The notes under the pieces are model-generated. The model had not been told where the DNA came from. It saw only the letters and a list, made by a program, of their open reading frames with translations, and made no database searches. The translations under genes and the position numbers were made by a program. This document shows, one piece after another, positions 15,942 through 38,222 of a stretch of DNA of 64,000 nt. The DNA comes from Koleobacter methoxysyntrophicus (lineage in GTDB: Bacteria > Bacillota > Thermosediminibacteria > Koleobacterales > Koleobacteraceae). Where the stretch lies: contig NZ_CP059066.1 of assembly GCF_017301615.1 (NCBI RefSeq), positions 2,554,888 through 2,618,887 of the forward strand, written 5' to 3'. Each line of letters starts with the position of its first letter. Within the stretch, counting starts at the first letter, position 1.

Positions 15942-18900
15942 TTAAAAAGGTAACCGGAAGTCATACGATGGAAAGTGTTTCTCTAGATAATCTATCAGCT
16001 TTTTCAAGAAAGTTGTTTTGTTTTTATCCGAAAAAGCATCGAACTTGGCAAGTAGGCCATCAACTTCCAGCTCATCTAGGCGTCTATCACAGGCTTCAAT
16101 TTCGTTTTGAATTATCGCCCGCTGTTCAACTGAGAGCACCGCAGGCATTTTCTCAAGTTGCCTTTTGATTTCTAGTAACCGAGCAGCATCTGCCTTTCGA
16201 ATTTCTTCCGTTTTTGGCAAGTTTCTTTCCATCCATTCAGCAGCAATCTGACTTCTTTTATTCTTAATATTTTCCATCATATCCTTGTATATTAACTCAC
16301 TATCCAAGGGTGGTTGATCTTCCGGATACAAAGCTGCTAATTCCTGTTGGCAGTGCTTTAACAGGGCATCTAGCTCAGAGTCAGTTTGGTTTTCATCGCT
16401 GAGAAGAGCATATTGTTTTTCAAACTGTTCAAGTTGTTTCATAACCTGATTAAAGTCTTCGAGATCCTTCTCCTGTCCCGCAAATATTCTAATAAGGTCA
16501 ACCACCTCTGTTTTCCAACTTGTTATATCTGCTAAACAGGTAATCTGCCGATGATTATAAATATCTGCAGCCCTAGAATAATGCTGTTGTAGCTGTTCGC
16601 GACAAGACTGGCTAAACTGCTTCAGTTTAGCAGCAGCTTCATCAATTTCATTTTTGGCAATGTTTGTTTTTTCCCGGGCTGCTTTGAGGTTTTTCCTAAG
16701 AGTTTCTACCTGTTCAAGCCATGCCCTTAAATCTGTTATTGTTGATGCCTCTGATACTGTGTTATGCTCAATTAATTTTTTAACCGCTTCCGTTGACTCT
16801 CTTATCTCAGTTAATACCTGGACATTTTTTTCAACTTCTTCAACGTGAGCTTCTAACTGCTTTATCTCTTCATCTAACCCAATTGTATCTAAATTACCCC
16901 CTATTTTTACATTCATGCGATGCTTAAACTTGCCAAGCTGTTCGATACTTGTTACTCGTTGATTGCTTAGCCAACGCGAGAAAATCTGCTTTACCTTTAA
17001 ACGTGCAGTCGTGTAATGTTTTTCTACTTCTTCAATTTGTTCTGTAGTCCAACAGTCGCGATTCGCCATCATTCTGTGATATTCTTCTGCCAATATAGCC
17101 GCACCCCAAGATAGCAAACCAGCATCCTCTGTTACGTTTCCAGTTTCTATCTTGTCCAGCGCATCATTTAAAAACTGCTCCAACCGGTTCAGTTCCCAGG
17201 CAGCTTTTTTTGTATTTTCCTGCAGCAATTTATATTTATAAAAGAGCTTTTGGGGTATAGGAATACGGTTTTTTAGCTCATTGGCCTTATCACTAAACTG
17301 GACTTTCCCCATATGAGTTGGCTCTAAATCCCATTCCTCAAGCAGAGCATCCCACTCTGAAACCCTTTCGCTAGATACTCTTACTATTTCGGTTACATTT
17401 AAAACCGAAAGGTCAAAAAAGTTGCTAGGCATTGCTTGTGTCAACCAGTTCTCTATCGCCATAACCTCATTATCTTTTAACAGCTCTAGCTCATCTCGTC
17501 GCCGTCCTATATATAGTGCTAAAAGCAAACCCGCAGCAGCCAGATTGCAGCCAAAGGGCGGTGCCGTCCAGAGCTCAACAATTTTGCCTAAGTTTACGCA
17601 CTTGTTTTCTACTCGCTCCCCTTTAGGTTCCAACATTGTATCCAATACTTTTAAAGCTTCCCGAACTTTTGAGTTAGTTGGCAACAGCCTAACCGAACCA
17701 TCATTGTCAAAAATACCCCAGGACTTATCTAAAACTGTATAACCTCGATTCCGCTGTTGTTGGTTTCTTGCCTGCAGCCATTCCCGATCTAAATTGCCCA
17801 GCAGCAACTCTTTGGTAAACACCTGGCTATCTTTTGCCGCATTTCCTCGGATAGTGTAGAAACCATCGAAGGGAAAGGGTATTCTGTCTGGATAGACTAT
17901 GTCAAGCAGCTGCTCAAGCATCTGTTTTAATCGTCTCTGCACTATTTTTTTCTCAGTAGCAAATACTATATTTCGTTCCTTCTCCATTTCAGAAAATTGG
18001 ATCTGCAGCTCTTGCCAGGTGCTGTTCTTTTTGTCCAGGATAAAGTTGGCAAATTTCTGTTTTTCTTCTTCATTAAATCCCAGCTCTAATACCCAGTATT
18101 CAGCAAGTTTCTGCCCAAACGCTCCTTCTGAATCATAAAGGAATATAATTGCCAGCGGGGCGCCTTTTTCCCAATCCAGATTAAGCTTTTGCATTTGCGC
18201 TTTGATTATCTCAGTTGCCTTTTCTGTTAAAAGTCCCAAGTTACTTTCCGGCCCCACATAGCAGTAGATCAATTGACCTTTTTTAACGTCAACATTTCTA
18301 GCATCACACCACGCCCGCAGCGCAAATTGGACCTGGTTTTCAAGCAGGTAAACATCGGTAAAGTATACAGTATACTTCCATTCTTTGGTAAAAATCTCGT
18401 TCTTTTCTCCAAAATCAGTAAGGTATTCTTCCACTTGCGACCAATGCTTATAATTGGTGCTAAAAATCCGCGCCCGCTTTTCAAGGTCGATATCTTCAAC
18501 CTTAACTGCAAGTTTAGCGAGAAAGGATTTCCTTGGAACTGCATCCCCGACAATTTCGTATTGACAGAGCAGGCCGTTCCATTCCAGCACGCCATATTCT
18601 TTTTCTAAAGAATTAATCCCAGCTTCCGCATCATTAGTATTAAGTCCACAAAACATTGCTACGGCATGCAAGTAATCGTCTTTTGATTCTACTTTGATTC
18701 CTATTTTTTGCTGGAGCACAATGGCCTTTAGCAATGCTTTTTCTATTGGCGAAAGCTCAAGCTGATATTTTTGAAGGACACTTTGGTAAGCATAAGTAAC
18801 CGTCCCCTGTGCGCCAAAGCTTTCTGAAGACAAAAATTCAGCAAGCAATCCCTCAGTCAACAAATCGATAGGCCTGATAGTCTGCCCAAGTTCTAATTCT

Positions 18901-20270
18901 TTATTTTGATAAACCTCAAAGGTATCAGCTAAGAGGGATAACGCAGAACGCTGCTGCAAAGATTTACCTATAGTAGTTAGCTTATATAGCACCCAGGTAG
19001 AAAGAGGGTGCAGAGGCCAACAGCCCTGTCCAACAATCTTATGAAAGCTTTCGGTCTCGAACCAGAGTGAGTGATTATTTATCTCAGGGAACCAGCGTTT
19101 CATGAAGGAGTGAACCTGGTCGAGAGGCATATCCAAAACCGAAAGGTGTTCAGTAATAACTTGGGGATTTTTCTTTTCCAAAAGATTGGCTATTACTGTC
19201 TCTAAATTCGTTGACAGCCTGACCTTGCGCACTGTATCAAAACGGGTCAGATAACGGTTTATTTCTTCACGGCGTTCCGGTACTACCCGAGAAGCATAAG
19301 CCTTGAGCTCACTTTGAATAAAAGAAAGTAAAAACACCCTCTCCCCATTTTCTTGGACAGCTTCAAACAGTTGCTGTAAAGCAGCCGGCCCAGCAATATG
19401 GGGCTTTTGGACAGCAAATTCAAGATAACGGCCAAACTCATCAAAGAGCAGCAAAATTCCTGCAAAAGGTTTTCCTGGCCCGCAGTAAACTTCCTTCGCC
19501 ACTCGGATAAAGTCTTGGAGGGATTCCTGGCCTGCAGCCGGCAAGGGAGAACCCATTTTTTGCGCGTAGATTTCATTAACCATCCGAAAAACATTTTCAT
19601 CCTGTGCCTGAAGGCCCTGGATTATATCTTCTACTTGGTAATCAGGCCCAAAGTGCTTTTGAAAATCTTCCTTCAGCGACAAATGAAAAGATACTGTAAA
19701 GTTTTCAGCTAGTTTAAACCGGGGACGAAGGTTTTCCAAAACACTTGTATCTATTCCTTTGTCCTTCAAAGCACTGAGCAGCTGCCGAGAAATTTCACTG
19801 CCCAAGTCAAAGTCTTCCATACCGTTCAAGGTAACAACCAAAAACTGTTGGTCGCTTAAGGAAGATAAAGTATCTTTAACTTGCTTACCTATGCTTGCAT
19901 CAGCAAGAATGAGATTTTCCAATATTTTTCTTGCTACTTCTGACTTGGGCCTAGAGAATAATGTTGCTAGAGTAAGAGCCAGATGAGATTTTCCCGTCCC
20001 GTAACCAGCAATAACTATGACAAACGGTTCATCAGTAATTTTCCCTGTTAACCGCTCTGTAATTTCCTTAGCGAAACTAGCCGTATCCATTAACTGCAAA
20101 CTGGGTTCGGCAAAATCTCCAGTGGCTACACCATGGTAGTCTGGCCCATGGAAAATAAAGTGTGCAGCTGCTTTATCAGACAGCGCCTGGTTTCGTTCAA
20201 ACCAACCTAACTGAACCGCTCCCTGGAACAGCAGGTCTTTGCGGAAAGAAGTAATATCTGCCAGCTTCAA
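15942..20270 (-). CDS. Giant AAA-type ATPase B (BrxC/PglY-like), last gene of the cassette
   Basis: 1442 residues. Walker A AGYGTGKS at residues 88-95 and Walker B LLLFDEFGRYLEF at 273-285 with Asp277-Glu278. The C-terminal third (about 1100-1400) is mostly coiled coil rich in E/K/Q. Size, early P-loop and the DEFG/DELGxxLEY Walker B recall the large ATPases of Pgl/BREX systems (PglY, BrxC), but no direct family name is certain. It opens MKLADIT, like ATPase A (MKLSDVI), and directly follows a DUF4007-like gene by 14 bases, mirroring the ATPase A pair. TTG start with GGGGGGAT upstream. G+C is well above the flanking chromosome. No nuclease motif was seen. Confidence 0.85.
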   Translation of the reverse strand: MKLADITSFRKDLLFQGAVQLGWFERNQALSDKAAAHFIFHGPDYHGVATGDFAEPSLQLMDTASFAKEITERLTGKITDEPFVIVIAGYGTGKSHLALTLATLFSRPKSEVARKILENLILADASIGKQVKDTLSSLSDQQFLVVTLNGMEDFDLGSEISRQLLSALKDKGIDTSVLENLRPRFKLAENFTVSFHLSLKEDFQKHFGPDYQVEDIIQGLQAQDENVFRMVNEIYAQKMGSPLPAAGQESLQDFIRVAKEVYCGPGKPFAGILLLFDEFGRYLEFAVQKPHIAGPAALQQLFEAVQENGERVFLLSFIQSELKAYASRVVPERREEINRYLTRFDTVRKVRLSTNLETVIANLLEKKNPQVITEHLSVLDMPLDQVHSFMKRWFPEINNHSLWFETESFHKIVGQGCWPLHPLSTWVLYKLTTIGKSLQQRSALSLLADTFEVYQNKELELGQTIRPIDLLTEGLLAEFLSSESFGAQGTVTYAYQSVLQKYQLELSPIEKALLKAIVLQQKIGIKVESKDDYLHAVAMFCGLNTNDAEAGINSLEKEYGVLEWNGLLCQYEIVGDAVPRKSFLAKLAVKVEDIDLEKRARIFSTNYKHWSQVEEYLTDFGEKNEIFTKEWKYTVYFTDVYLLENQVQFALRAWCDARNVDVKKGQLIYCYVGPESNLGLLTEKATEIIKAQMQKLNLDWEKGAPLAIIFLYDSEGAFGQKLAEYWVLELGFNEEEKQKFANFILDKKNSTWQELQIQFSEMEKERNIVFATEKKIVQRRLKQMLEQLLDIVYPDRIPFPFDGFYTIRGNAAKDSQVFTKELLLGNLDREWLQARNQQQRNRGYTVLDKSWGIFDNDGSVRLLPTNSKVREALKVLDTMLEPKGERVENKCVNLGKIVELWTAPPFGCNLAAAGLLLALYIGRRRDELELLKDNEVMAIENWLTQAMPSNFFDLSVLNVTEIVRVSSERVSEWDALLEEWDLEPTHMGKVQFSDKANELKNRIPIPQKLFYKYKLLQENTKKAAWELNRLEQFLNDALDKIETGNVTEDAGLLSWGAAILAEEYHRMMANRDCWTTEQIEEVEKHYTTARLKVKQIFSRWLSNQRVTSIEQLGKFKHRMNVKIGGNLDTIGLDEEIKQLEAHVEEVEKNVQVLTEIRESTEAVKKLIEHNTVSEASTITDLRAWLEQVETLRKNLKAAREKTNIAKNEIDEAAAKLKQFSQSCREQLQQHYSRAADIYNHRQITCLADITSWKTEVVDLIRIFAGQEKDLEDFNQVMKQLEQFEKQYALLSDENQTDSELDALLKHCQQELAALYPEDQPPLDSELIYKDMMENIKNKRSQIAAEWMERNLPKTEEIRKADAARLLEIKRQLEKMPAVLSVEQRAIIQNEIEACDRRLDELEVDGLLAKFDAFSDKNKTTFLKKLIDYLEKHFPSYDFRLPF

Positions 20271-20284
20271 AAGTTATCCCCCCA

Positions 20285-21106
20285 TCAGGCAATCTCGTCA
20301 AAGATCCGCAGCCATATTTCCTGAGCCCTGGCTTTCTTTTCAATTAACCATGGCCGGATCTGGCGGTCTATGGTAATAAACCCCTTAGTTTCAACAAAGG
20401 AAAATGTAGTTTGGATATCAACTTCCTGCCAAAGGCATACATCAAACCAAAGGGTTTTCTCCGAAAAATCTGTTAAGGTTATTTGGGTTTCCTTAGGGAA
20501 AAATGCTTCCAACAAACTAAGAATATAGGCAGAGTAGGGCACAGCCCATGAAGCTAAAATAGGAGCCTTGTTCCGCGTTACAAAATCTCCCTCAATAGCC
20601 AAAACTTTTGCCCTTCCCAGAGCTGCATCATCAAAATAAGCAGACAAGAGGGGGCCGGTTCTGTTTTTACCCCTCCCGAAATAGCTGACCAAGTAATCCT
20701 CTAATTGCTGGGTAGAAAAACTTGCTCCTAAGATATTTCTCCCTCTGGCAAAAACTTCGTGCCACACCTTTGCCCCAATATCACCGCGGCAGAGGTGCAT
20801 GTGCACCAGCCACTGGGTTAACGTTTCCCCTAAATATTTATCGTGTAGATAAACAGCTTCGCCAAAGGAAGTAAGAACCGGTTTTTTATGTTGCTTTTGG
20901 CTCCCAGGCCTAACTACTATCAAGCCCATACCTCGGCAGTAGTCAAGTATAGCTGGCATTTTTCCTGTAGATTTACCCGTAGGAATACCTGTATCCTCAG
21001 AGATTTCCTGTAAACTACCCTCTTTCCCCAGCGCTGCATATTCTAGGAGAGCAGCAATCAACCGCCTTTCAGGAATAAATGTTTTATGAAAATTTAGCGG
21101 TAACAT
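20285..21106 (-). CDS. Divergent DUF4007-like protein B
   Basis: 273 residues. The N-terminal half resembles a winged helix: FIPERRLIAALLEYAALGKE, then GIPTGKSTGKMPAILDYCRG, which aligns in spacing with LGVGKNMVSSIRFWC of DUF4007 protein A. A shared pattern TSFGEAVYLHDKYLGETLTQWLVHMHLCR matches TELGDKLL...EASLWLLHWQLF of protein A. DUF4007 proteins occur with phosphorothioation-type and other defence loci, with unknown role. GAGGAGGG precedes the ATG. It sits 14 bases upstream of ATPase B, suggesting the two proteins work as a pair. DNA binding is inference. Confidence 0.65.
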   Translation of the reverse strand: MLPLNFHKTFIPERRLIAALLEYAALGKEGSLQEISEDTGIPTGKSTGKMPAILDYCRGMGLIVVRPGSQKQHKKPVLTSFGEAVYLHDKYLGETLTQWLVHMHLCRGDIGAKVWHEVFARGRNILGASFSTQQLEDYLVSYFGRGKNRTGPLLSAYFDDAALGRAKVLAIEGDFVTRNKAPILASWAVPYSAYILSLLEAFFPKETQITLTDFSEKTLWFDVCLWQEVDIQTTFSFVETKGFITIDRQIRPWLIEKKARAQEIWLRIFDEIA

Positions 21107-21120
21107 TGATACCCTCCTCT

Positions 21121-24100
21121 TTAGAACCTTTCTTCCAGAGGCTTAATTTGAATCTTGAACCACTTATTCACTTCTAGCTTGTCGGTTCCTGGATTATAGG
21201 CATACCCTAAAGAATAGCACTCTCCCCGTTTTAAAGCGGATAGACGTTGGATCCAGTTTTCCTGACGATCATTGGTGGCATCCGCAAGCAACTGGGCAAA
21301 AAACTTAATTTCTGTGTCCGCTGGCTTAAAGAAGAGTTTATGGCTTGCTTGAAAGAGCCGGTCTCTTTCATCTTTACTCAAATTACTCAGAGTTTGAGTG
21401 GCGAGGATCAGAGAAATTCCAAATTTGCGCCCTTCGGTAAGAAATTGCCCTAGCGGACTTTCCAGGCGGTGATCAAGGTTCTGGATTTCATCCAACACAA
21501 TTACCCGAGGATTATCTTTACTGCCCCTGGCCCGGTAATACCAGTAGAGATCTATGAGAGAAAATTCTGTAATCAAGCGGGCCGAATCTTTCATGAAGCC
21601 GGCCAGTTGGAGGACGTGGCACTTGGAACAGGGGTCTAAGAATAACTTTTCCCAGCTCTCAAGATCTTCTTCGCCAAAGGGATTCATATCCACAAAAGGC
21701 TTTATCTTGTTAATTACCGTCGTTGCCGGGTTAGCAGATAATCCGCCTCTTGCCCGAATATCCTCTAATTTGTCCAGAAGCATTGTCAGGTTAAAATTGT
21801 TTCCTACTTCCTCTACCCCAGTTTGGACCGCATTATATAAAACTGATTTTTGCTGTTCTCCGAGTTTATAAACCTCGGCAAATACTCCGCTAACCCGCTG
21901 AGCTATCTGCGTTGGAGTATCTTCCAAAAGCTCATCGTCAATATAATCGCACTGCTTGCGGAAAGGATTGATAGCCAGCGGCTGTTTGCGGATAATGTGC
22001 TGTTTTGGCTGCAATCGTTCCCGGATAATCGGTTCCAATTGCTTGTTCGTAAAACCACTCGTATAGTCTACGATAAGACTGTTAGTTCCGCACTTGCTGA
22101 GTTCTGCCAGCACAGCTTGAATGGTATAAGTTTTACCGGTTCCAGAAGCCCCAAAGATAAGCAAATGCCGGTTAGGCAAGTCGGGATGGCCAAATTCCCA
22201 GTAAACGTCACGGCCACCAGCTGTGCCGCTTCCCAGCAAAATCCGTTCGGGGATACGGATTTCTCTATTCAGGATACCATCTCCAGCTTCGACCGGTTTT
22301 ACTCTAGAAACGCCAGCTTTTCCTTTGTCGTCTTCTTCTTTTTTGGGGCAAGTAGTAGATACTTGTTTCTCGATCTCCTTGGAATCGGTTTGCTCATTAT
22401 CCGTCAATGAACTACTTTCTGGCCGTACATGTTGGTAACGCAACATCGAACGGCCCTCAAAAAGGTTGAATTTTACCCCTTCAAAGCCTGCTTTTTGAAT
22501 AAATTCTTTGCCACATTGAACCGAATAAATATTTATTTCTTGTCCGTTAATACTAAAGCTCCATTGGGGGGTTGGCACTAAGTCCCCATGGGCAACATCA
22601 GTCCAAAAAGCAATTGCTGCAGCTTCCCACTCAATGTTGTAGCATCCCTCACTTAAGCTTTCCAGAGCTTGCAGAGTTTCCCGGTATTTAGCCTTTCGGA
22701 TCTCGCCCCGGCTGGTAATTAGCCGATGGAGTTGCATCCACCAGTACCGTTGATCAGGAGGATAACCTCCCTTATCTTCATCATCTACCCCTACTGGCTT
22801 CGTTGTCACCCGGGGGCGAAACTTGAGCACCAACTGCTTCAGCCCTTCTTCCACCTGCTGCAGGGCTTTTTCTAAATACCCCTCCGACTCTTGGGCTAGC
22901 TTGCATTCGATTATTTGCGCCTTAATATTGAAGCATCCATCTTCTATTTTGGCCTGGAGCCGTAATAGATCAGGACGCATTTCGTTCGGTCCGAAGTCAA
23001 ACCAATGCAGGAATGCATCTAAAGAAATAATCTCATCACAAAATACTTCATCTTCTTTCGGAAGCAGTTTTCTCACCAATGCATAAGCAATAAAATCCCG
23101 AACATATTCGGAAGGACCGGTAGCTTTAACCACAGATAAACCAGATATTGAGAAAGCTTCTTTAATCAGGCTATCTGCAAGCCTTGAGCAAACATTTTCA
23201 TCCCTATTCCCTAATAAAATTGCAAGTTGGTCACTAATTTTTTTGACGATATCAGATAGATAAAACTGTTCGGTAGAAATGGTAAAGTTGTACTCACCAT
23301 GTGGACCCACACCAGTACCAAATCCTATTATCTCCCTTTTGTTATCTTCTTTGCTCAAAAGTTTTTCATCTACGATAGAGTCAATGCAAACTACCCACAC
23401 GCAGTTTTTGTGAGCAACATCAATAACTCGTTCCCAAGGTTGAAAATCGCTGGTGCTTACCACCACATGCTCTACATTTTCATCAAGCTGATAGTGATTA
23501 TGCAGTCGGGCCATCACTTCTGCATGCAACGTACCCAACTTAAACCGCCGGTTGCTTAGCACCAATTCCCTTTCTTTAGCTTTTCCCCCTTCTGTGACCG
23601 CACAGCTTACCTTTTCCAGCACTGGAAACTTTACATAATCCTCAAATCCACACCGGCAATTATCCCCTAGGGGAACAAACTGGCTCTTTTTGGCCCGAGT
23701 AAAATTGTTAAAGAAAATCAGGTCAAGGTCTGTCTGCTGAATTAACTTCTCTAGCTGTTCCCAATCTCCATATGGCGCTACCCGGTAAAAGACCGAAACT
23801 TTGCTGCCAGCATAGTGTTTTCGCCTTGAATTGCCCTCTGCTTCCTGCCAACGTTCCTTCCAAGCGTTTATCCAATGCAACACTCCGGTATCATCAGGGC
23901 TGTCAGAAAAAATAGTTAAGTTTAAGGAGTAAATGTCATCAGCCTTCTCTTTTGTAATTTCAGCCAGAAAAGCATCAATCCCCCCTATTATCTGCTGTAT
24001 AGTGCCGCCACAGTATATTCCCACGCTTAAGCCGTCGTTGGCATAAGGATGCAGCTTACAGTAGTCAAGGAGGACATGCTTAATCAGCTTAACCTCTTGG

Positions 24101-26331: not shown

Positions 26332-26350
26332 ACCGATAACCTCCCATTTT

Positions 26351-27976: not shown

Positions 27977-30900
27977 CAAATCACCTCTAATCCATCTTCA
28001 CTTACCTGCAAATTCAGTTCTTCAAACCTGCGGTCAGGACGGATTCGCAGCAGGTATAAGGTATCGCTTTTATCCTCTTGAAAGTTTTTGCTGCATTCCT
28101 TCAACAATTTGCCCTTAAAGTCTTCCAGCCGGTTACTATAGTAGGCTGACAATTCTTGAGCTATTTCACCTTCGTAACGGCGGGCAACGTAGTCAAAGAA
28201 AGGAAGGTCAAGCTCCAACTCTACTGGTTCTGCTGCTGCTTTGTAGATAAGAGAGAAAACTTTATTGCTACCTCCATCAGTTTTATATTGATAGCGGGGC
28301 TTCACCACGAGCTCAAAGTCATCTTGGCGCAATCTCGCCAGTATCATCTGAGTTCCCACATTATTGCCAGGTGATTTTAAGGTAATGTATATATCTTTCC
28401 CTTCCTTCCACGTTTCTTCTGGTAAACGCAATCCGGTAAAGTGCTCTTGCAAGACATGTAAAACCTTAATGCAAAACCTGCGCAGGTGAGAACGCAAGGG
28501 CGCATTCTCACGCGTAACTTTTAAGTAATCCAGGAGCATAGGCGAATCTAAAAAGGTAGAAATAAATTTTTCCCGTTCATCACCTTCAAACCTGCCGCAA
28601 AAGTAGGCCAAACGTCTAATTTGACGGCGTAGTACCGATTTGTCTATTGCCTGGGGAGAATGATTTTTAATCAAAAGCTTGTATGCCTCTCTAGCTTCGG
28701 AATTTAACACAGTATATGCCTCTTCCTTCAGCCAGGTCTTCCTCTCAAATTTAGGCACAAGAGTTGAGCCAAACTTAATCTCTTGGATAACCTTTACCGG
28801 CACTAACTTCATCGCCTCAGGAACAACCTTGCTTCCGTCATCTCCGAAAAACCGATTAAAAAATCCCAAGCGGCACAAGAGCTGCCGCCTAGCCAGCAGG
28901 GACATATTTGCCACATCAGAACAATTTAGTCCACCGGTAAGAGCATAGGCTAGATGTCCTGTCATCTGGCGCATCGTAAGCCGCTGGCCATATTCATAAA
29001 GACGTTTGTAAAGGAGATACACCCGCTCCAAAACCAGCTCCAAGTTGCTTTGCAGCAACTTAACATTGCTTAAAATTGGACAATCTCCATAGAACTTACA
29101 TTGAGAGCAACCAGTCCAGTTTTCGGGCTCTAACATTCGTTTGAATACATCACAGGCAATGTTGATACTGTCCAATTGACCGATGTTTAGTAAACGAAAG
29201 CGATTATCCATTATTTCAGTAGGTTCACTGGCTTCTAGTGCGCTAAGTAAAATAGTTTCGCTAACATCTTCTCCCATCACTGCCTTTAGCTTTCCAAAGG
29301 CCTCCAATAAGGTTCCGGTGTTGGATACAATTAGGTATGTTTTCAACTCATTTTCCAAAGCTTCTTTAAGAACATAGGCGCGATCCTTTTCTGGCAACTC
29401 GCTCATATCTTTTATGATAACGAGATTTTGATCTGGAACTTCTTGTCGAGGATTAAGCTCCCGAAAATTATCACCCATAACTTTTTGCAGAATATCAACA
29501 GCAATGGTAGTTTTACCATCCCCGGCATTGCCGGTTAAAATAACATTTTTCCCTTCTTCTAGCCATTGATGTATTGTATCGGTTAGCGGGTTGCGTATAT
29601 AAATCTTGGCGAAATGTTCATTTCTAATTTGACACTCTGCAATGGCGTTTTCGTTACCGGCTGAGGCACAAGAAAGAGAGTTGAGGTAGGCAACAAATGA
29701 GTTATATTCATCAAGGTCGAGTGCAGGTTCTCTGGCTGCGTCTTTAGTATCAGCAGGCAGAGTTTCTACTTCATCTGCTTCCTCAAGTGATGTTTCCTCT
29801 TCAATAGGTGCACCCTTTACAAACATATCCCACATTTCTGTAATAGTAGCAAAACCTTCCCTAGGCTCAGTAGCAACGGCCTTTAGCAACCAGGGGTACA
29901 AATCCCGGAATTCTGGCAAGTCCTCAGGCAGCATCGGCTTATCACCAACAGCTGGATTTGCATAAGGTTTTTGACCAAATAGCCATTCCCATAGGGTTAC
30001 CCCTAAGGCAAAGAGATCTCCCCTAGGTGAAAAATCCCGATCCGCTCCCCTAATAGTATCAGGAGGAATGTAACCGCTGGTTCCCTGAAAGACATCTACC
30101 CTGGGTTCACCAGCAAGGCCAAAATCGATTATGACCGGTTTCTGTTTAGAGGTAATTATTATATTTTCAGGTTTTATATCACCGTGAACAATTTGCTTCC
30201 CTTCTCCGTTCTCATCTTTATGTTCATGGAACGCTCGAATGCCTTCCATTAGCGAGCGGGCAACGCTGTTAAAAGTATTCCTGTCTGGTCTTTCCTTGCG
30301 GCCAATTAGTTCCCGAAGGGTTTGTCCCGGAATATAATCCATGACAATAAAGTAGCGTTTGCCATGCCAGTGCCCGGGTCTGCGCTCACAGCGAACCACA
30401 TAGGGCGAGCGAATTTCGCAACCTACATCCAACTCTCTGAAAACTCTGTCTAGTGACGTTTCGTAGTTAAAAACTTTTAGGACAACTATCTGCCCTCGGG
30501 GGGCCTTCGCCTTGTATATTTGTGTTTCTGCCCCCTTGCCAATAAACTCAACTATCTCATACATATTATATATATCCCCTGGCTGCAGCTTGGAGTTCTC
30601 AGGCAATACTTCAACGTCCCTGTCCTTTTTCGCATTGTAGCGAGTCAAAACAGAAAGAACAGTATCAATATCCTTTACGCGCTTTGTCCGATCAGCCGTA
30701 ATCATTTTCTCAATGACTCGAACTTTAGCTTCCGGAACACCTGCTTTCACCAATCTCTGCCTATTTTCGGTAGACAATGCTCCCCCCCGAGCCACAAACT
30801 CCCGCGTAGACTTAAAAGGCTTTTCACCTGTCAACAGATGATAAGCGATTACGCCTAGACTGAAATAGTCAGTGCTTTCATCAATATCTTCGCCGAAAAG

Positions 30901-32505
30901 AAGCTCCGGTGCTACATAACCGTCATCTTTAATTTTGGCAGCATCGGGGATTACAGTAAGGCGGTTGTCTTCTAGTTGAAAAGAGAGATCGAAATTCATC
31001 AGTTTAGGTATTCCGTTCTTAATTAGAATGTTTTCCGGTTTAACCGCACGGTGAATTATATTTTCTTGGTGGGCCTTATTCAATGCCAAAGCTATATTTC
31101 TGCATATTGTTAACCCCTGCTCTAAAGGCAATCTGCCTTCAGACTCATAAATTAAATCTTGCAACGTCCCCGTTTCGGACCATTCTGAAATTTCAATAAT
31201 ATCGCCTTCCTCTGTCTGACTCACAGATACTTTATGAATATAGGGATGTTCGCCGATTTGTTGCACCGCATCCAATGTATTTAAAGCTATTTTTCTAAAA
31301 CGTTCTCTTTCCTGTTCCGATTCTTGCACAAAACGAAACACTCTTAGTCGGTGCAAACCCTTGGCCTTTACACCAATTGGTCGGGCCAATAATTCTATAT
31401 ACTCTGGCTTTTGAGAAAGATATTCCACAGTTTCATAACCTGGTACCGTATATTCCTTCTGCTGTTTTGGCCTATTTAGATCAGCCAAAAAATCTGCAAT
31501 TGCACACACTTGGTTCTCTTCCAATATTTGCATCTTCTTATCTCTTCTCTTTAAGTAGGATATAAAATCTGCTATAGATGCGAAGGTTAAATTGTGCCGA
31601 CCTTTTATGTCCGCAACCTCAGGTGAATCAGCTCTTTCTACTATGGCTTCTGGATTTGTCAATACGACAACAGACTCTACCCATACATCGGGATACGTAA
31701 CAAATCTATGTTGATAAATTCCCTTCAAAACTTTACATTTAAAGCTGTTGTTTTTGTGGGGATCAACCCGATACCGGTTTTTATTAATACGCCATTGATA
31801 ACCTTCAATCTCTATATGCCCAGACCAATGCTTTAGCTCAACAACATAGATTCCAGAACGAGCTATTATAATAAGATCATACTCATAGTAATTGTTCGTT
31901 TGTACATCAAAAATGTAAACATTTGCTAACGTTTTAATTATTTTTTTATCTAATAAACGTATAATACAATCGATTGCGCTTTTTTCATAATCAAATAAAG
32001 ACCCGTGAAGATAATATTTACTTGTATTCTCCTTTAGTAGCATCGGGTCATCATCTGTGTTTTCCGGTTGAGTATCAGCAAACTTGTTTAATATAGAAAT
32101 AAGTTTTTTTTTAATTATTTCTCTTGTATCTTTATTTGTAAAAAATTGAAATACATCATCACTTAAAAAAGCGTAATCTACATTTCGATTTAGATCACCG
32201 GGCCCTCCCACTGTTGACATTTCAGCTAAAAAATTATCCCGACCAGATTTTGGTTTTAAGTGCCAGAAGTTATCACTTTTCAAATGAAAAAAAGGAATAT
32301 ATGGCCTATTGGAAGCATGATATTTATATTTATTTAAATATTTAGAAAAAATCTTTTTAAGCTGTTGATCGAAGCATATTTTATTTGCTGGCTCGGCCTG
32401 TTCACCTAGTAAATCAATGACAGTTAACAGCAAAATAAATTTATGGGGCTTATGAAACTTTTTTGCCATTGCATCAAGGTGTGCCAAAAAATTTTCAAAA
32501 GTCAT
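27976..32505 (-). CDS. Multidomain protein: reader-like N terminus, NERD nuclease-like, pseudokinase, Ser/Thr kinase, P-loop NTPase
   Basis: 1509 residues. (1) 1-140: HKFILLLTVIDLL and PYIPFFHLKSDNFWHL, a pattern like the N-terminal sulfur-binding domains of ScoMcrA-type endonucleases (inference). (2) About 165-340: NERD domain with PD-(D/E)xK-like Asp210, Glu223, Lys225 (VVELKHWSG). (3) 360-620: pseudokinase, HRD changed to HRA (485-487) and DFG to NFD (504-506). (4) 645-900: complete kinase, Lys677, Glu691, HGDIKPEN with Asp776, DFG 794-796. (5) 930-1509: P-loop GNAGDGKTT (992-1000) and a Cys cluster GCSQCKFYGDC. NERD-kinase layout recalls PglW of Pgl/BREX type 2. DNA for residues 1 to about 215 is far more A+T-rich than the rest. 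GAAGGAT precedes the ATG. Confidence 0.85.
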   Translation of the reverse strand: MTFENFLAHLDAMAKKFHKPHKFILLLTVIDLLGEQAEPANKICFDQQLKKIFSKYLNKYKYHASNRPYIPFFHLKSDNFWHLKPKSGRDNFLAEMSTVGGPGDLNRNVDYAFLSDDVFQFFTNKDTREIIKKKLISILNKFADTQPENTDDDPMLLKENTSKYYLHGSLFDYEKSAIDCIIRLLDKKIIKTLANVYIFDVQTNNYYEYDLIIIARSGIYVVELKHWSGHIEIEGYQWRINKNRYRVDPHKNNSFKCKVLKGIYQHRFVTYPDVWVESVVVLTNPEAIVERADSPEVADIKGRHNLTFASIADFISYLKRRDKKMQILEENQVCAIADFLADLNRPKQQKEYTVPGYETVEYLSQKPEYIELLARPIGVKAKGLHRLRVFRFVQESEQERERFRKIALNTLDAVQQIGEHPYIHKVSVSQTEEGDIIEISEWSETGTLQDLIYESEGRLPLEQGLTICRNIALALNKAHQENIIHRAVKPENILIKNGIPKLMNFDLSFQLEDNRLTVIPDAAKIKDDGYVAPELLFGEDIDESTDYFSLGVIAYHLLTGEKPFKSTREFVARGGALSTENRQRLVKAGVPEAKVRVIEKMITADRTKRVKDIDTVLSVLTRYNAKKDRDVEVLPENSKLQPGDIYNMYEIVEFIGKGAETQIYKAKAPRGQIVVLKVFNYETSLDRVFRELDVGCEIRSPYVVRCERRPGHWHGKRYFIVMDYIPGQTLRELIGRKERPDRNTFNSVARSLMEGIRAFHEHKDENGEGKQIVHGDIKPENIIITSKQKPVIIDFGLAGEPRVDVFQGTSGYIPPDTIRGADRDFSPRGDLFALGVTLWEWLFGQKPYANPAVGDKPMLPEDLPEFRDLYPWLLKAVATEPREGFATITEMWDMFVKGAPIEEETSLEEADEVETLPADTKDAAREPALDLDEYNSFVAYLNSLSCASAGNENAIAECQIRNEHFAKIYIRNPLTDTIHQWLEEGKNVILTGNAGDGKTTIAVDILQKVMGDNFRELNPRQEVPDQNLVIIKDMSELPEKDRAYVLKEALENELKTYLIVSNTGTLLEAFGKLKAVMGEDVSETILLSALEASEPTEIMDNRFRLLNIGQLDSINIACDVFKRMLEPENWTGCSQCKFYGDCPILSNVKLLQSNLELVLERVYLLYKRLYEYGQRLTMRQMTGHLAYALTGGLNCSDVANMSLLARRQLLCRLGFFNRFFGDDGSKVVPEAMKLVPVKVIQEIKFGSTLVPKFERKTWLKEEAYTVLNSEAREAYKLLIKNHSPQAIDKSVLRRQIRRLAYFCGRFEGDEREKFISTFLDSPMLLDYLKVTRENAPLRSHLRRFCIKVLHVLQEHFTGLRLPEETWKEGKDIYITLKSPGNNVGTQMILARLRQDDFELVVKPRYQYKTDGGSNKVFSLIYKAAAEPVELELDLPFFDYVARRYEGEIAQELSAYYSNRLEDFKGKLLKECSKNFQEDKSDTLYLLRIRPDRRFEELNLQVSEDGLEVI

Positions 32506-32520
32506 TTTACTATCCTTCTT

Positions 32521-33333
32521 TCAAGTTAAAAATCTTAAGGTCTTAAGCAGTTTACACGTAGTATACTCTGTTTTTAAGTCCCTATTTTCAACACCGTTTT
32601 TACCTGAATGCTGAAATTGTTCTTTTTTATTAAGTAGCTCACCTAAGCTAATATCTTGACACCAAGTAAACCTGATTCCCTTCTCAGGAAGATAAGTTTC
32701 ATATTTCATCGCTTTATAATAAAGACTTGGATGATGTTCATAAAGTCCTAACCACTCCTTCTTTGTTTGATAGAAACAAAAGTAGCAGCCAGACCTTTTA
32801 CGCCAAGAATAATAAGCAGGGAATCCTAAACCTGAACCAACAAGAAGATCTCGGATATCTTTATAAACTAAGCCATCCTCAATAAACGGAAAATGAACTT
32901 TTAGGTAAGGGTTTCGCGCAATTAACCCTTTACGTTCTCGCGCCTCATCCGCTCGTAGGCCTACATAGCTATGTACTATACATCCTGGAAATCTTTCATT
33001 AATCCATTTTTCATAAGGTATAAGTTTCAAGACCTCTGTACACCATCTGTTCTTAGGGGAAGGCAGGTAAGTAAAAGTTCCATAAGGAGTTTTTTTTACT
33101 TTTGTTAAAGCCCAATAATCATCCCAACCCTTTTCGGGCTTTACAACAGTTATATCAATATTTAATACTGCCCTTATTCTATCCAAATACTCATAAGTTT
33201 CAGGCAGCTCGCAACCACTGTCAGTAAAAACATACTCTAGGTCCAAATGCGGGTATTTTTCTCTTAAATACACTGCTAAGGCTGCACTATCCTTGCCTCC
33301 TGACAATGCAAGAATATGTCGCTCTTGTTTCAC
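32521..33333 (-). CDS. DndC/CysH-like PP-loop sulfurtransferase
   Basis: 270 residues from GTG 33333, chosen because AGGTGG lies eight bases upstream; the longer GTG start at 33345 overlaps that signal. The PP-loop SGGKDS (11-16) adenylates substrates in the PAPS-reductase/N-type ATPase fold. RWCTEVLKLIP (Cys98) and GCYFC (Cys183, Cys186) are the expected iron-sulfur ligands of DndC-like enzymes; YVGLRADEARE is the conserved superfamily arginine motif. In Dnd and Ssp systems such a protein inserts sulfur into the DNA backbone with a cysteine desulfurase. It is shorter than DndC (about 500). No desulfurase is in the operon. A sulfate-assimilation role is unlikely given the context. A+T-rich relative to neighbours. 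Confidence 0.85.
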   Translation of the reverse strand: MKQERHILALSGGKDSAALAVYLREKYPHLDLEYVFTDSGCELPETYEYLDRIRAVLNIDITVVKPEKGWDDYWALTKVKKTPYGTFTYLPSPKNRWCTEVLKLIPYEKWINERFPGCIVHSYVGLRADEARERKGLIARNPYLKVHFPFIEDGLVYKDIRDLLVGSGLGFPAYYSWRKRSGCYFCFYQTKKEWLGLYEHHPSLYYKAMKYETYLPEKGIRFTWCQDISLGELLNKKEQFQHSGKNGVENRDLKTEYTTCKLLKTLRFLT

Positions 33334-33337
33334 GGTA

Positions 33338-36300
33338 TCAACCACCTAACATGATTTTGTCAGCCAAAAGTGCCAATACTGCTCTAGATTTTTCCTGAGG
33401 CAGAGCTAATATTTGCTCCAGGATCCGCTCTACCTCAGGGTCACTATTGTCAATTCTTACAACTTCCCTTTTTATATTACCATCAGATTTCATCACGCTG
33501 ATCATCTGAACATTCTCTATGGGCAAGTCATGAGCAGTTGCCAACGTCTCTAACTGCTTAATACGCTCGGCATAATCAGCTAGCTTAGCTTCAAATACTG
33601 CAAGGTCCTGATCCTTCCAGGCATCTACCGGCTTCTTCACTACTGCTCCAGCTATGCCCCTTACCCAATCCTCCACATTGGATTCATCTCTAGCCATAGC
33701 TTGAAGGACAGGTTTTAGATCAGTAGCATCACAAATTGTTATTAAATTCTGGGCAATCGTTCTTTGGGAAGAACATAACTGTTCAAGACTTAAGCTGGGA
33801 AAACTTTTCAGCAGCGTTTCTTGTATTCTCTTGTTTAACCGCTCATATGCCTGGCCAAGCTCACTTAGTGTAGATCGTAAACTGTTCTCCAAGTCCTCAA
33901 CCCATGTATCTGCGCTCTTTCCGTCAATATCTATTCCTAATGCTTTGGGCAGGTCCTCGAATAAAAAGCTTAGAGGATCGACAGCATTTGCAATAACTGA
34001 TCGCACTCGCTGGGACCTCATTGATATGTTCCGCGTCTGCTTTGAATAACGCGGCAATTGATCAACAAACTTCATTAAAGGCCCTAGAACCCCCAACATA
34101 GTCGCGTTTCTCAAGTTTGGATCTGTTTTTATCTGAGATTTTTTTAAAACAGCCTTGTATGCAGCGAAAACTTTTTCCTGCATACCGTTAGTGATAAATT
34201 TCTTGACAGTAAATAACTCAGGGCGTTTAAGGAGTAAGGCCATATCTGCGGCAGACAAATATGGGTGGTAAGCACCCTCGCGAAATACAGTTAAGTTTTC
34301 CGCATTTACAAGCAAGTAAAGCGATATGTAAATAAGGGCAGGACCTTGCTTCAAACCAAAGGGAATCTCCCGCAGCCTATCTAACATGGCAGCAACGCTG
34401 ACCCCTTGGTCATCAGTCTTTTCTAAGAGTTGGTCAAGTTCTTCCCATGCTTTATTCAAATTAGGATCAGTTCCTTCTAGGGTTAACTGCCAAGTGCCGG
34501 TCTTTTTATTCTTTATGTGCAGTCCCTTAGCAAGAAGAAGAGATTTATATATAGCCACTTCTGGCCCCCAGCCAGTAAAACCCAGGTTTTCTTCCTCTGC
34601 CCTAGTTGCCATTGCCTCAACAAGTTTCCGGCGGGCCCTCACAGCAGCACTCGATAGCTTTTCACTGCTGATAATCTCGTTTTTAATGGTAGGTGCATAT
34701 TTGTAATAAGCTTGACAAAGTTCAGATATCTTTACTGATAACTCTCTACGGCTTAGAATTTGGCACTTTTCTCCTTCAGTATACCAGAGCAGACCAGCTG
34801 CCCCTGGGGCAAAAGCCCTTGCTAGATACTCTCGAAATCTGTCCTGGGACACCCGAAGTCTAAAATTCACCTCTTTACGTGCAACCTTATCATGGGTAAG
34901 TTGGTGATAATTTTCCAAGACACGCTGACAGGCAACAATCTCTAAGGCTATCTCTGATAAGGTTTCCTTTACAGGGGCATGAGCCACTAGAATCGGGCGC
35001 CCATCACTGCAAACTTTGGGAACCTTCCCTGGCTCTTTTTGGGTCCCATAACAGTAAATCAAAAGACCATCAAACCCTTTTTGGGGAGCTAGCTTATCCG
35101 ACAGAGATTCTACATCAAGCCAACGCCGCTCAAACCGGCGCATAATTCCCTTTTGATGGGCATAACGGGCAGCAATTATAGGGGATAAAGGTAAGTTTGC
35201 TTCTAGAATTTCTTCCAGAGAACCTAAAGATAGTTTAGACTTCTCTTTGTCAATTGCCCCACTTACGTCAAAATCTGAACCTTCCCACAGGCGGAATTCA
35301 CCAGCATAATCCCTATAAAAAATTACCCCTCGCTGGTCAAGAAAATCTAAGATTTTTTTTACCTTTTCTGGTGCCCAGAGGTAGGAGTATTCCATAATTG
35401 AAGCGATAACTTCAAAGCTTGCCTTTAGTCCCAATGACCCTGCCAACAAATTAAGAATCCCAATGTTTTTTAATAAAACAGATTCTTCCTCGCTAAATTG
35501 ATCTGCAGATTGAATAATATCGTTAATCTCGACCCACCGCTGAGTTGCAGGTCTATTTGCTAATGACGTATGGCTAAACTGAAAGAAATAATCATACAGA
35601 CAATCTAGACCCACAGCAGGCAGTCTTTTGTCAGGATCAAAGTACATTCTTTCAATTTGAGCAGGAAGAGCGTACATGTGCCCACTAGATAAGAAGGAAA
35701 CCAACGTTCTTTCGTTTTGCGCAAACCGACGGCAGAGTTCAATTAAAGCTAAACTTGTAAGTGGATGCAATGGATATAGTCTGACCATGGAGTCAACGTC
35801 TAAATATTCTTTTCCTGCCACGCTGATATTCTCTAAGGATTCTTTAATCCTCATTTCCCATTCTTTAACTCGTTTTTGCAAATCTTCCTTAAAATTATGA
35901 TTAAGAATAGTTTTAATTAAATTAAGCATCTGAGCAGTGGACTCGATAAACGATATTTCTTCAAAGCGCCCTTGGACTTTATTCCATTCTTGTTGTTGGA
36001 CTGCAGAAAATCCAGACATATATTCATCAAAAGCCTGATGCAAACAAACCCACAAATAGACATTATTCATCTCTGCTAACTGCTGGAGAATAAAAAGATC
36101 TCCATTATGGCAATGGTACGATAAGTATTCTAAATTTTTGCCTAGTTCGTCTATCACAATAACAAGAGGGGTTTCGGCTAACTTCGCTACAGCTTTAAAT
36201 AAAGTTAAAAGCTCGTTGGGTTCAATTGAACCATTTTGCAACATCTCGTCTATATTAGTACGAATTTTATCTTTATTTTTTAGTTCAGATTGGGAAACAG

Positions 36301-36718
36301 CACTTTGTAAACCTCGGGCTAAAGTAGTATTCATTGACTCAAAGGAAGCAACAATAGGAACCCGGAAAAATCCCGCTTCCCCAGTTATTTGCTCTTTTTT
36401 TTCTAAAAACCTGTCGTATAGTTCTTGATTGGACAGCTTTAACTTATGCAAAGCCGTTTGTGTTAAACTACTAGTTTGTGGACCAGTAACAGCAAGAAGA
36501 AAGTTGAGGAAGGCAGATTTACCCATGCCATACGGCCCAACCAAAGACCAAGCAGTTACCTTTTCATCACCCAGAGCCGCTATAAAGCGCTCCATAACTT
36601 CCTGGGCTTTTGCAGTAACTTGGTAATTATTTAAAACATCAAGCTCGGATTTGTCTCGCTCTAGATTAATAGACCGGGCGAATTTCTTATTCAGGACAAT
36701 AACATCTGATAGCTTCAT
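33338..36718 (-). CDS. Giant AAA-type ATPase A
   Basis: 1126 residues, starting MKLSDVIVLNKKFARSINLERD. Walker A GPYGMGKS at 61-68, Walker B VIVIDELGKNLEYL around 187-200 (Asp190, Glu191), then a sensor-like segment VYLWVCLHQAFDEY. The rest is helical with no recognised enzyme domain. The ATPase type resembles the large ATPases of Pgl/BREX loci and of other DUF4007-associated loci. It begins three bases after the DUF4007 A stop, with GGGGAGAT upstream, and ends four bases before the sulfurtransferase start, so the three are probably co-translated. Resemblance to ATPase B in start sequence, P-loop position and Walker B suggests an ancient duplication. Confidence 0.85.
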   Translation of the reverse strand: MKLSDVIVLNKKFARSINLERDKSELDVLNNYQVTAKAQEVMERFIAALGDEKVTAWSLVGPYGMGKSAFLNFLLAVTGPQTSSLTQTALHKLKLSNQELYDRFLEKKEQITGEAGFFRVPIVASFESMNTTLARGLQSAVSQSELKNKDKIRTNIDEMLQNGSIEPNELLTLFKAVAKLAETPLVIVIDELGKNLEYLSYHCHNGDLFILQQLAEMNNVYLWVCLHQAFDEYMSGFSAVQQQEWNKVQGRFEEISFIESTAQMLNLIKTILNHNFKEDLQKRVKEWEMRIKESLENISVAGKEYLDVDSMVRLYPLHPLTSLALIELCRRFAQNERTLVSFLSSGHMYALPAQIERMYFDPDKRLPAVGLDCLYDYFFQFSHTSLANRPATQRWVEINDIIQSADQFSEEESVLLKNIGILNLLAGSLGLKASFEVIASIMEYSYLWAPEKVKKILDFLDQRGVIFYRDYAGEFRLWEGSDFDVSGAIDKEKSKLSLGSLEEILEANLPLSPIIAARYAHQKGIMRRFERRWLDVESLSDKLAPQKGFDGLLIYCYGTQKEPGKVPKVCSDGRPILVAHAPVKETLSEIALEIVACQRVLENYHQLTHDKVARKEVNFRLRVSQDRFREYLARAFAPGAAGLLWYTEGEKCQILSRRELSVKISELCQAYYKYAPTIKNEIISSEKLSSAAVRARRKLVEAMATRAEEENLGFTGWGPEVAIYKSLLLAKGLHIKNKKTGTWQLTLEGTDPNLNKAWEELDQLLEKTDDQGVSVAAMLDRLREIPFGLKQGPALIYISLYLLVNAENLTVFREGAYHPYLSAADMALLLKRPELFTVKKFITNGMQEKVFAAYKAVLKKSQIKTDPNLRNATMLGVLGPLMKFVDQLPRYSKQTRNISMRSQRVRSVIANAVDPLSFLFEDLPKALGIDIDGKSADTWVEDLENSLRSTLSELGQAYERLNKRIQETLLKSFPSLSLEQLCSSQRTIAQNLITICDATDLKPVLQAMARDESNVEDWVRGIAGAVVKKPVDAWKDQDLAVFEAKLADYAERIKQLETLATAHDLPIENVQMISVMKSDGNIKREVVRIDNSDPEVERILEQILALPQEKSRAVLALLADKIMLGG

Positions 36719-36721
36719 TCT

Positions 36722-37642
36722 TCATCTCCCCGAATAGTATTTATTCAATGCTTCAAAGTATAGCTCTTCTGGAGACTCATTAAAATGTAACTGCAAGCTT
36801 CCTAAAACATTAACCAACGAAAAACCTTTTAGGTCCTTATTTGCTTCGCTCAAATAATGTCCCACCGCGGTTTCAGGTAACTTAAAAACAACGCCTGGAG
36901 AGTTAATCCCAAAAGCTAAACGCTGAAGCGATATGGTTTTTTGCCTCGACGATAAATAGGAAGCTACATAAGAAAAGCAGGCAGCAGCAAAAATCAGCGG
37001 CGGAAGATTTGGTTTAGGTGCAGTATTAAAACTAACGTGGTATTTCTCTCCTGCCCTGTGCATAAGTCCTAATTGGGTAAAAGGACATTCAATTTCCGAA
37101 TCTTTTTCTTCCATATCTTCATACATTCTAATTATACAAGAAGCATCCCGTCTAAAAGTATTGAGGGACATCTTTGCCAAATTCGGATATGCTTGAGCAG
37201 CACTATAAATTATCCTGCTCAACTCCTTACTATCGAAACTCCACAGATTACAACGGTTAAAGGCTAAAGGCCAACTTACAGCTTCAAAGGGAGGAACAAA
37301 CAGTTGCCAGTGCAACAACCATAAAGAGGCTTCGTCCTCGAGATAAGGATCCCAGCCATTGTTATCGCTAAGTAGCTTATCGCCCAATTCAGTTGGAACA
37401 ATCTCATTTCTATTATCTACCGTGATTAACTTAAATGCTAGACACCAAAAACGTATAGAGCTGACCATGTTTTTGCCAACCCCAAGTTTTTCAATGGCAT
37501 CCGGCTCTTTAAAGATATTGTTATTTTCTATAACGGCATCAAATCCTTTTTTAAGCCAGCCATATCTCGGTGTAAAGGTTTCATGTCTTCCTAATTTACC
37601 CTGCGCTATCCATTCTTCAACATTAAATTCTTGCTTATTCAT
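36722..37642 (-). CDS. DUF4007 family protein A, first gene of the cassette
   Basis: 306 residues from ATG 37642. A clear DUF4007 signature: ETFTPRYGWLKKGFD, DAIEKLGVGKNMVSSIRFWC and EASLWLLHWQLF. The family is associated with phosphorothioation-like and other defence loci; its biochemical role is unknown, but the N-terminal part looks like a winged helix, so DNA binding or transcriptional control is possible. The frame is open to TTG 37663; GGAGG overlaps that TTG, so the first downstream ATG is preferred although the spacing is long. The start is therefore uncertain by seven residues. It heads the eight-gene operon. Confidence 0.8.
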   Translation of the reverse strand: MNKQEFNVEEWIAQGKLGRHETFTPRYGWLKKGFDAVIENNNIFKEPDAIEKLGVGKNMVSSIRFWCLAFKLITVDNRNEIVPTELGDKLLSDNNGWDPYLEDEASLWLLHWQLFVPPFEAVSWPLAFNRCNLWSFDSKELSRIIYSAAQAYPNLAKMSLNTFRRDASCIIRMYEDMEEKDSEIECPFTQLGLMHRAGEKYHVSFNTAPKPNLPPLIFAAACFSYVASYLSSRQKTISLQRLAFGINSPGVVFKLPETAVGHYLSEANKDLKGFSLVNVLGSLQLHFNESPEELYFEALNKYYSGR

Positions 37643-37716
37643 TTCAGCGTCCACATCCTCCAATGTTTTGAGGCGCTCCCCTAAAAAATAAGCCGAACAG
37701 CACGCTCAAATCTAAT

Positions 37717-37722
37717 ATTATA
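37717..37722 (-). promoter_or_regulatory. Possible -10 box of the cassette promoter
   Basis: TATAAT on the minus strand, about 75 bases before the DUF4007 A start. No good -35 element was found at the right distance. Confidence 0.35.
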
Positions 37723-37770
37723 AAGTAAGCTAGTGTCTTTGCTTATAACTACCAAACGTATAAGTTGCTT

Positions 37771-37784
37771 CCCCCTCCCTCCCC
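37771..37784 (-). promoter_or_regulatory. G-rich tract upstream of the cassette
   Basis: GGGGAGGGAGGGGG on the minus strand, about 130 bases upstream of the first cassette gene. A quadruplex is possible if the last run splits, but untested. Confidence 0.4.
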
Positions 37785-37840
37785 GAACTGTGCAAAACAC
37801 TCCGACTTTTCTTAAAAAGAGTTATCTAAAATAAAATTTT

Positions 37841-38080
37841 CTACTTACAGGACAAAAATTCCTGCTTTATCTGAGAAAATTTTTGTAATTCTTTCGGATA
37901 ACGTTTATTATGCGAAAACTTTCTAGCAGCAAAATCAAACTCCTTTTTGTGCATCAACATACTTCACCTTACTATAAAGCTCACTATTTTTTTCAAACCA
38001 GCTTTTTATTTCATCCCAAGCACTCAATTCGTCAAAGTACTTTTTGGTTTTTAGAACAGCTGCCACAAAGTTTTGATCGA
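37841..38080 (-). pseudogene. Decayed, frameshifted gene relic
   Basis: One frame reads FVAAVLKTKKYFDELSAW ... SELYSKVKYVDAQ, then stops at KGV; the adjacent frame continues as HKKEFDFAARKFSHNKRYPK ... QEFLSCK and stops at 37841. The two halves join naturally with one shift near 37960. No start codon or family is recognised. It occupies most of the 559-base spacer 37664-38222. Confidence 0.45.
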
Positions 38081-38204: not shown

Positions 38205-38222
38205 CCATCTAGGCAATTACTT

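Follow-up and report, generated by a model that had tools for sequence, protein, structure and literature searches.

A variant of the SspBCD-SspFGH defence family in Koleobacter methoxysyntrophicus with an extended SspF and an additional SspB/SspC-like pair

The window analysed here is a stretch of 64,000 nucleotides from the genome of Koleobacter methoxysyntrophicus (contig NZ_CP059066.1, positions 2,554,888 to 2,618,887). It contains a cassette of eight open reading frames (ORFs), all on the minus strand between positions 15942 and 37663 of the window, where an initial annotation had placed them. Assignment of this cassette to the SspBCD-SspFGH phage-defence systems, as a variant, is well supported by homology. 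Three features distinguish it from the canonical systems: SspF is extended, a second SspB-like and SspC-like pair is present, and the five genes of the restriction side form an exchangeable unit. In our view it fairly probably works by restriction-modification based on phosphorothioate (PT): SspF would read PT, unmarked DNA would be attacked and the additional pair would assist restriction.

The genes are lettered in transcription order as SspB (A), SspC (B), SspD (C), extended SspF (D), SspG (E), SspH (F), SspB-like (G) and SspC-like (H). From A to H the spacings between neighbours are 3, -8, 15, -4, 19, 14 and 14 bp, in agreement with the annotated gaps of fewer than 20 bases or overlaps. 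For gene A an ATG start at 37642 is likelier than a TTG at 37663, and for gene F an ATG at 26331 is likelier than the start first annotated. The cassette is genuine, tightly packed and conserved; its order is identical in nine other genomes and it interrupts an interval that is short in relatives, which excludes a chance arrangement.

Gene A (36722..37642) encodes SspB, the DNA-recognition and nicking subunit of PT modification. It matches the PADLOC SspB profile (6.3e-98), Pfam DUF4007 (3.4e-86) and the solved SspB structures 6juf/6lb9 (7.4e-41). Gene B (33338..36718) encodes SspC, an AAA+ ATPase of the BrxC/PglY type, and matches the PADLOC SspC profile over its full length (E=0, 1091 bits); a sequence search of the PDB gave no match to this protein. 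Gene C (32521..33345) encodes SspD, a sulfur transfer enzyme of the PP-loop/PAPS-reductase type (PADLOC SspD 1.5e-87, Pfam PAPS_reduct 4.6e-11). The three genes are adjacent, their PADLOC matches are full-length or nearly so, and by homology they are SspBCD, the PT DNA-modification module. The cassette has no desulfurase of its own, this is compatible with an Ssp system since the housekeeping IscS can stand in for SspA (PMC8092258) and a NifS/IscS-type cysteine desulfurase is encoded elsewhere in the same genome (G000:C1:2451852-2452937).

Gene D (27976..32505) encodes an SspF of 1509 amino acids with N-terminal extensions. From the N-terminus it comprises a sulfur-binding domain, a NERD nuclease domain, a pseudokinase, a kinase and the SspF core; the PADLOC PglW profile matches residues 169-987 (5.6e-69) and the SspF profile residues 935-1479 (5.6e-42). 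The SspF core (28069..29703) carries the Walker A motif TGNAGDGKT, which is conserved in the copies containing it. A comparator locus from the same phylum (G080) has the canonical form, with a BrxP-type SspD, SspB, SspC, a 404-amino acid gene, an SspF of 571 amino acids, SspG and SspH in this order, and with no G-H pair and no kinase. Gene D aligns with its SspF at an hhalign probability of 99.7%.

Gene E (26351..27979) encodes SspG, a protein of 541 amino acids. Its PADLOC SspG match (2.3e-17) is limited to the C-terminal part; alignment with the comparator SspG extends over nearly the full length (hhalign 99.4%). Gene F (21121..26331) encodes an SspH/DndH-type protein that combines a restriction endonuclease with a HerA translocase. 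The PADLOC SspH profile matches its middle (5.2e-20) and the DndH profile its C-terminus (7.6e-59). Only the middle part aligns with the comparator SspH, and this part holds the nuclease motif RPD...IECK of the PD-(D/E)xK type (22882..22992), kept in all readable copies. The C-terminal HerA/FtsK-type ATPase (21190..22182, Pfam DUF87 1.6e-9) has intact Walker A and B motifs, which are invariant in the readable copies, and in a sequence search of the PDB with gene F the sole match was HerA (4d2i). Genes D-F are assigned through these matches as the restriction proteins SspF, SspG and SspH.

The initial annotation described DndC-like, DptH-like and PglW-like parts in a sulfur-modification cassette, and this description holds, as do its domain calls (DUF4007, PP-loop, NERD, two kinases, NTPase and HerA), all of which are found by Pfam. 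We agree that the cassette very probably has an anti-phage role, and that it contains no PglX, PglZ, DndB, DndD, DndE or desulfurase. The likeness of gene D to PglW is genuine, yet restricted to the residues given above, and the N-terminal sulfur-binding domain had been missed. Gene E, listed as an unknown protein, is SspG. The cassette was also said to match no standard system; the profile searches give SspBCD and SspFGH, to which six of its eight genes belong, and the gene set is conserved elsewhere. The refuting test that the annotation proposed comes out half against it. The suggestion that sulfur modification stands in place of PglX methylation is not upheld, as Ssp systems naturally lack PglX, PglZ, DndD and DndE. 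SspE, DndD and DndE had no match among the eight proteins in the profile search, and a Dnd reading was dropped for the lack of DndD and DndE; in the whole genome the sole full-coverage match to the DndD profile falls below the cut-off and is PbeC. A MADS reading was dropped as well, since the kinase and HerA parts alone match. Genes A, B, E, G and H received no informative NCBIfam name.

Residues 1-145 of gene D (32071..32505) are not recognised by Pfam. Searched with a profile built from ten homologues, the PDB yielded one sequence only, SBDHga1 (8h0l, 7.2e-35), which is a sulfur-binding domain. An AlphaFold2 (AF2) model, with a predicted local distance difference test (pLDDT) score of 85, matches the same structure best (2.8e-9). 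Its thirteen top PDB fold matches, whose E-values exceed 0.01 past the first two, are without exception sulfur-binding domains, those of SprMcrA and ScoMcrA included. In ScoMcrA the sulfur-contacting cavity (H116, R117 or K, P165) is required for PT binding (PMC6224610). The corresponding residues H21, K22 and P71 are present in gene D and kept in 13 of the 16 readable loci; G158 and G553 have an SspF without the domain, and G414 has the domain with its cavity lost. The domain is accordingly modelled with an intact cavity in gene D and is predicted to bind PT-DNA. Loss of the sulfur-binding domain does not strictly accompany BrxP-type modification: G158 and G414 would agree with such a rule, and G553, which has an SspD-type enzyme, breaks it.

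In the reading that we favour, SspB, SspC and SspD would take sulfur from the housekeeping NifS/IscS desulfurase and place it in the backbone at short sites of host DNA. SspF, SspG and SspH would form the restriction complex, in which SspH would translocate with its HerA motor and cut with its PD-(D/E)xK nuclease. With its N-terminal sulfur-binding domain SspF would sense PT on self DNA and restrain the complex, and PT-free DNA would be attacked. Genes G and H would serve restriction by scanning for the same or related target sequences or by loading the complex there, and the NERD-kinase part would be an optional back-up or signalling effector. SspFGH and DndFGH are toxic to PT-free cells, and SspFGH damages DNA that lacks PT (PMC8092258); it is from this behaviour that we take genes A-C to mark self and genes D-F to attack unmarked DNA. 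Toxicity of the restriction part in PT-free cells would account for the constant pairing of D-H with a modification module. This reading builds on the gene set and its families, on catalytic motifs that are conserved, on the intact cavity of the sulfur-binding fold and on the D-H genes as an evolutionary unit; from these we infer that the organism has PT chemistry, how self would be told from non-self, and what G-H and the kinase would do.

The sulfur-binding domain may instead work in the opposite sense. Its binding to host PT would then switch the SspF complex on, together with the kinase or NERD domain, and the system would be silent without PT, as in SspE, whose activity depends on PT (PMC8092258). 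The best-studied sulfur-binding domains do belong to enzymes acting on PT-DNA, such as ScoMcrA (PMC6224610), and PT activation equally predicts the constant pairing of D-H with a modification module. We nevertheless regard it as unlikely, for in the SspF/G/H family PT protects and its absence is toxic (PMC8092258), and the three SspF copies without a usable sulfur-binding domain keep the remaining D-H genes. Inhibition rather than activation upon PT binding is our guess, by analogy with the behaviour of this family.

Several points weigh against PT-reading restriction as we propose it. Inhibition and activation by PT binding are indistinguishable from sequence. The sulfur-binding domain appears dispensable in some versions, given that 3 of 16 SspF copies have no usable one, and the pairing of G414 and G158 with BrxP-type modification could mean that another mark or reader operates there. 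Canonical SspFGH has no sequence similarity to a sulfur-binding domain and so must read PT otherwise (PMC8092258).

The sulfur-binding domain of gene D is followed by a NERD-family nuclease domain (residues 181-283, 31657..31965; Pfam NERD 3e-14) with the motif D...ELKHW, invariant in the copies that have the domain. The pseudokinase (residues ~396-630, 30616..31320; matched by a Pfam kinase family) has HRA for HRD and NFD for DFG, and the degenerate motifs HR(A/N) and NFD are common to all copies with this domain. The kinase (residues ~645-850, 29956..30573; Pfam Pkinase 8.1e-61) has an intact K, HGDIKPEN and DFG, and these motifs are conserved. G199 and G631 have neither NERD domain nor kinases, and their sulfur-binding domain runs straight into the core of SspF. 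These two sit at different places in the restriction-module tree, so the absence of the NERD-kinase part probably has more than one origin, whether by loss or by failure to gain it.

The kinase might be thought the main effector, phosphorylating host or phage proteins on infection in an abortive response that the PT part merely gates. Catalytically intact kinase motifs and a NERD domain in 14 of 16 judgeable SspF copies would suit this role, as would the PglW-like part common to Type-2 BREX (PMC12839542). Loss of the NERD and kinase domains in G199 and G631, independent lineages that keep everything else, indicates that the system can do without the kinase and makes a leading role for it very unlikely. 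We infer that NERD and kinase are optional effectors, in line with what PMC10853773 suggests for DndF.

Fusion of NERD and kinases to a core of this kind is already known. The order winged helix-turn-helix (wHTH), NERD, pseudokinase, kinase and P-loop core is described for some DndF proteins in PMC10853773, and PMC12839542 also mentions the joining of NERD, pseudokinase and kinase to a DndF-type core. The sulfur-binding domain is equated with a wHTH (PMC10853773). These DndFGH variants share their domain order with gene D, whereas the core of gene D matches SspF and not DndF, and the main text of PMC10853773 contains no linkage to SspBCD, no G-H pair and no naming of the fused wHTH as a PT reader.

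Gene G (20285..21106) encodes a second, divergent SspB-like protein (B2). Its Pfam DUF4007 match is weak (3.8e-7); an AF2 model with a pLDDT of 92 has the SspB structures 6juf/6lb9 as its best PDB folds (E 3e-5, template modelling score 0.63), and the protein retains 14 of 42 SspB-conserved positions. Gene H (15942..20270) encodes a second SspC-like AAA+ ATPase (C2) with a long helical C-terminus, matched by the PADLOC SspC profile (8.6e-20). Its residues 36-979 align with the SspC family (hhalign 99.8%), and its Walker A and B motifs are intact and conserved in the copies containing them. Gene G lies immediately downstream of SspH in all 21 readable loci; one further copy, in G420, is a remnant. 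Genome contigs were searched with a small alignment of gene H, whose sequence by itself gave no matches. The search on plasmids returned three weak SspC-like matches alone and no plasmid copy of gene H.

The cassette consists of two evolutionary units. Identity matrices of A and B correlate at 0.98 and those of A or B with C at about 0.8; within D-H the correlations are 0.71-0.92, and between the two sets they are weak (0.17-0.61). G and H track D-F (0.71-0.92) and follow SspBCD less (0.35-0.61). Trees of E+F+G+H and of A+B have three well supported splits in common and conflict in many others. G383, G412 and G631 have alike SspBC and three separate places in the restriction tree, and in G158 and G414, which stand apart in that tree, SspB and SspC accompany a BrxP-type modification enzyme downstream of H; the G158 locus includes SspA. 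The five-gene D-H module is complete in all readable relatives and, where flanks are readable (12 single-contig loci and 4 split ones), always accompanies a modification module.

D-H thus travels as one unit, paired with differing modification modules including the BrxP type. From the matrix correlations, conflicting trees and scattered tree places we read repeated exchange of the modification module, the number of events being uncertain given FastTree support, contig splits and unequal rates. In G199 (L053-L054) SspD is 75% identical to that of the window, against 37-54% for SspB, SspC and the restriction genes; an identity so far above that of its neighbours suggests that SspD was exchanged by itself.

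Movement of G and H with the restriction genes is our reason for placing them on the restriction side. They could instead form a second modification scaffold that shares SspD and places PT at a second target sequence, and the SspB fold of G and the SspC-like ATPase of H with its intact Walker motifs would be in keeping with this. A second SspD is never present, matrices and trees put G-H with D-F and away from SspBCD, the pair persists when a BrxP-type module replaces SspBCD, and merely 14 of the 42 SspB-conserved positions remain in G. We judge a second scaffold to be quite unlikely. More tentatively than the restriction-modification reading itself, we suggest a five-gene PT-reading restriction module (sulfur-binding-domain SspF, SspG, SspH, SspB2, SspC2) that would plug onto different PT-modification modules. 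The sulfur-binding domain would be the direct self/non-self reader, SspB2-SspC2 a captured copy of the modification targeting unit, both halves inspecting the same sites, and the kinase a second line of defence upon failed PT recognition.

The complete A-H order occurs on one contig in ten genomes from at least three phylum-level groups: that of the window, G094, G199, G383, G417 (Syntrophomonas palmitatica), G412 (an Armatimonadetes metagenome-assembled genome (MAG) with breaks in SspC and D), G553, G717, G631 and G607, the last four sampled from the phylum of a deltaproteobacterial MAG. Four more loci, split across contigs, agree with this order: G410 (Desulfofundulus thermosubterraneus), G411 (a Dethiobacter MAG), G421 and G413. 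Relatives of gene G of the cassette type are present in 7 of 399 sampled genomes of the window's phylum, the window genome included, and in 5 of 297 of a second phylum. A close gene F likewise occurs in seven of the 399 genomes, and these are the same seven.

In the G417 cassette (L058-L059) SspC, SspD, D, E, F and H are interrupted by frameshifts, owing either to decay or to errors in the draft sequence. In G631 (L095 2999-4194) SspC is broken into two ORFs, and the ORFs that lie between the halves on the opposite strand may represent an insertion element.

The interval from a methionine-gamma-lyase gene (ynbB type) to an AAA ATPase gene measures 24.3 kb in the window genome and 1.40-1.50 kb in six relatives. 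Housekeeping neighbours of the cassette include mutS, mutL, miaA and lexA, and its G+C content is 41.8% compared with 36.5% for the remaining window. Horizontal acquisition of the cassette fits the long interval, the housekeeping neighbours and the higher G+C. Solitary PT-modification genes influence gene expression and redox balance (PMC8092258), and a housekeeping epigenetic system with no defence role would be of this kind. It is hardly credible for this cassette in view of the insertion into a housekeeping interval, the patchy distribution, the module exchange and the five conserved restriction-side genes with their nuclease and translocase motifs.

The closest described system is SspABCD-SspFGH of Vibrio anguillarum FF-93 (PMC8092258), which like the cassette has SspB, SspC and SspD beside SspF, SspG and SspH, with the desulfurase supplied by IscS from elsewhere. 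Canonical SspF has about 560 amino acids and lacks the sulfur-binding domain, NERD and kinases, all of which the cassette SspF has. Canonical SspFGH comprises three genes and no second SspB/SspC pair, in contrast to the five genes D-H, and gene F differs from canonical SspH in its DndH-like HerA end.

Type-4 BREX (BrxP, BrxC, PglZ, BrxL, DUF4007; PMC12839542) has homologues of SspB, SspC and SspD in common with the cassette, and the modification enzyme of G158 and G414 is of its BrxP type. It has PglZ and BrxL, whereas the cassette has neither. A BREX reading was dropped as PglZ, BrxL and PglX are absent from the cassette; a PglZ is encoded some 0.8 Mb from it, in a separate locus of BREX genes. 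PglW of Type-2 BREX/Pgl resembles gene D in its NERD-pseudokinase-kinase half; the C-terminal half of gene D is SspF, unlike that of PglW, and the cassette is without PglX, PglZ, BrxD and BrxHI. HerA/FtsK BREX-related capture (BRC) systems (PMC12839542) combine a HerA translocase, DUF4007 and a BrxC-like ATPase as the cassette does, but none of the BRC core of PglZ, STAND NTPase, GNAT and TGT is present in it.

In the open-access literature, which leaves out most subscription papers and preprints, we found no report of a sulfur reader in an SspBCD-linked SspF, of a G-H pair or of modification-module exchange. How FGH-type complexes recognise PT as a mark of self, when only a small part of sites is modified, is an unsolved question (PMC8092258); a sulfur-binding domain of known structural type inside a restriction protein makes it open to point mutation. 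The D-H module is also a candidate partner for some of the orphan sspBCD loci, 83.9% of sspBCD loci having no known restriction partner (PMC8092258). Exchange of SspD-type and BrxP-type enzymes under one restriction module ties Ssp directly to Type-4 BREX.

The region that separates gene A from its upstream neighbour (37700-38380 of the window) has no long ORF; it looks like decayed coding DNA and is perhaps an insertion remnant. The separate BREX locus mentioned above (L122, G000:C1 about 1748052-1763957) contains BrxC, a 1241-amino acid gene, a Ppl/mad3-like gene (881 amino acids), a prokaryotic Argonaute (pAgo)-like gene (387 amino acids), PglZ and BrxL; the pAgo-like match is unusual within a BREX locus. 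Homologues of PbeA (5e-235) and PbeC (3e-178), parts of another PT-linked restriction system, are found at a further locus (L123, G000:C1 about 2736471-2740741), where no Dnd modification gene was recognised among the four scanned neighbours. These PbeA and PbeC proteins might draw on PT from the Ssp cassette.

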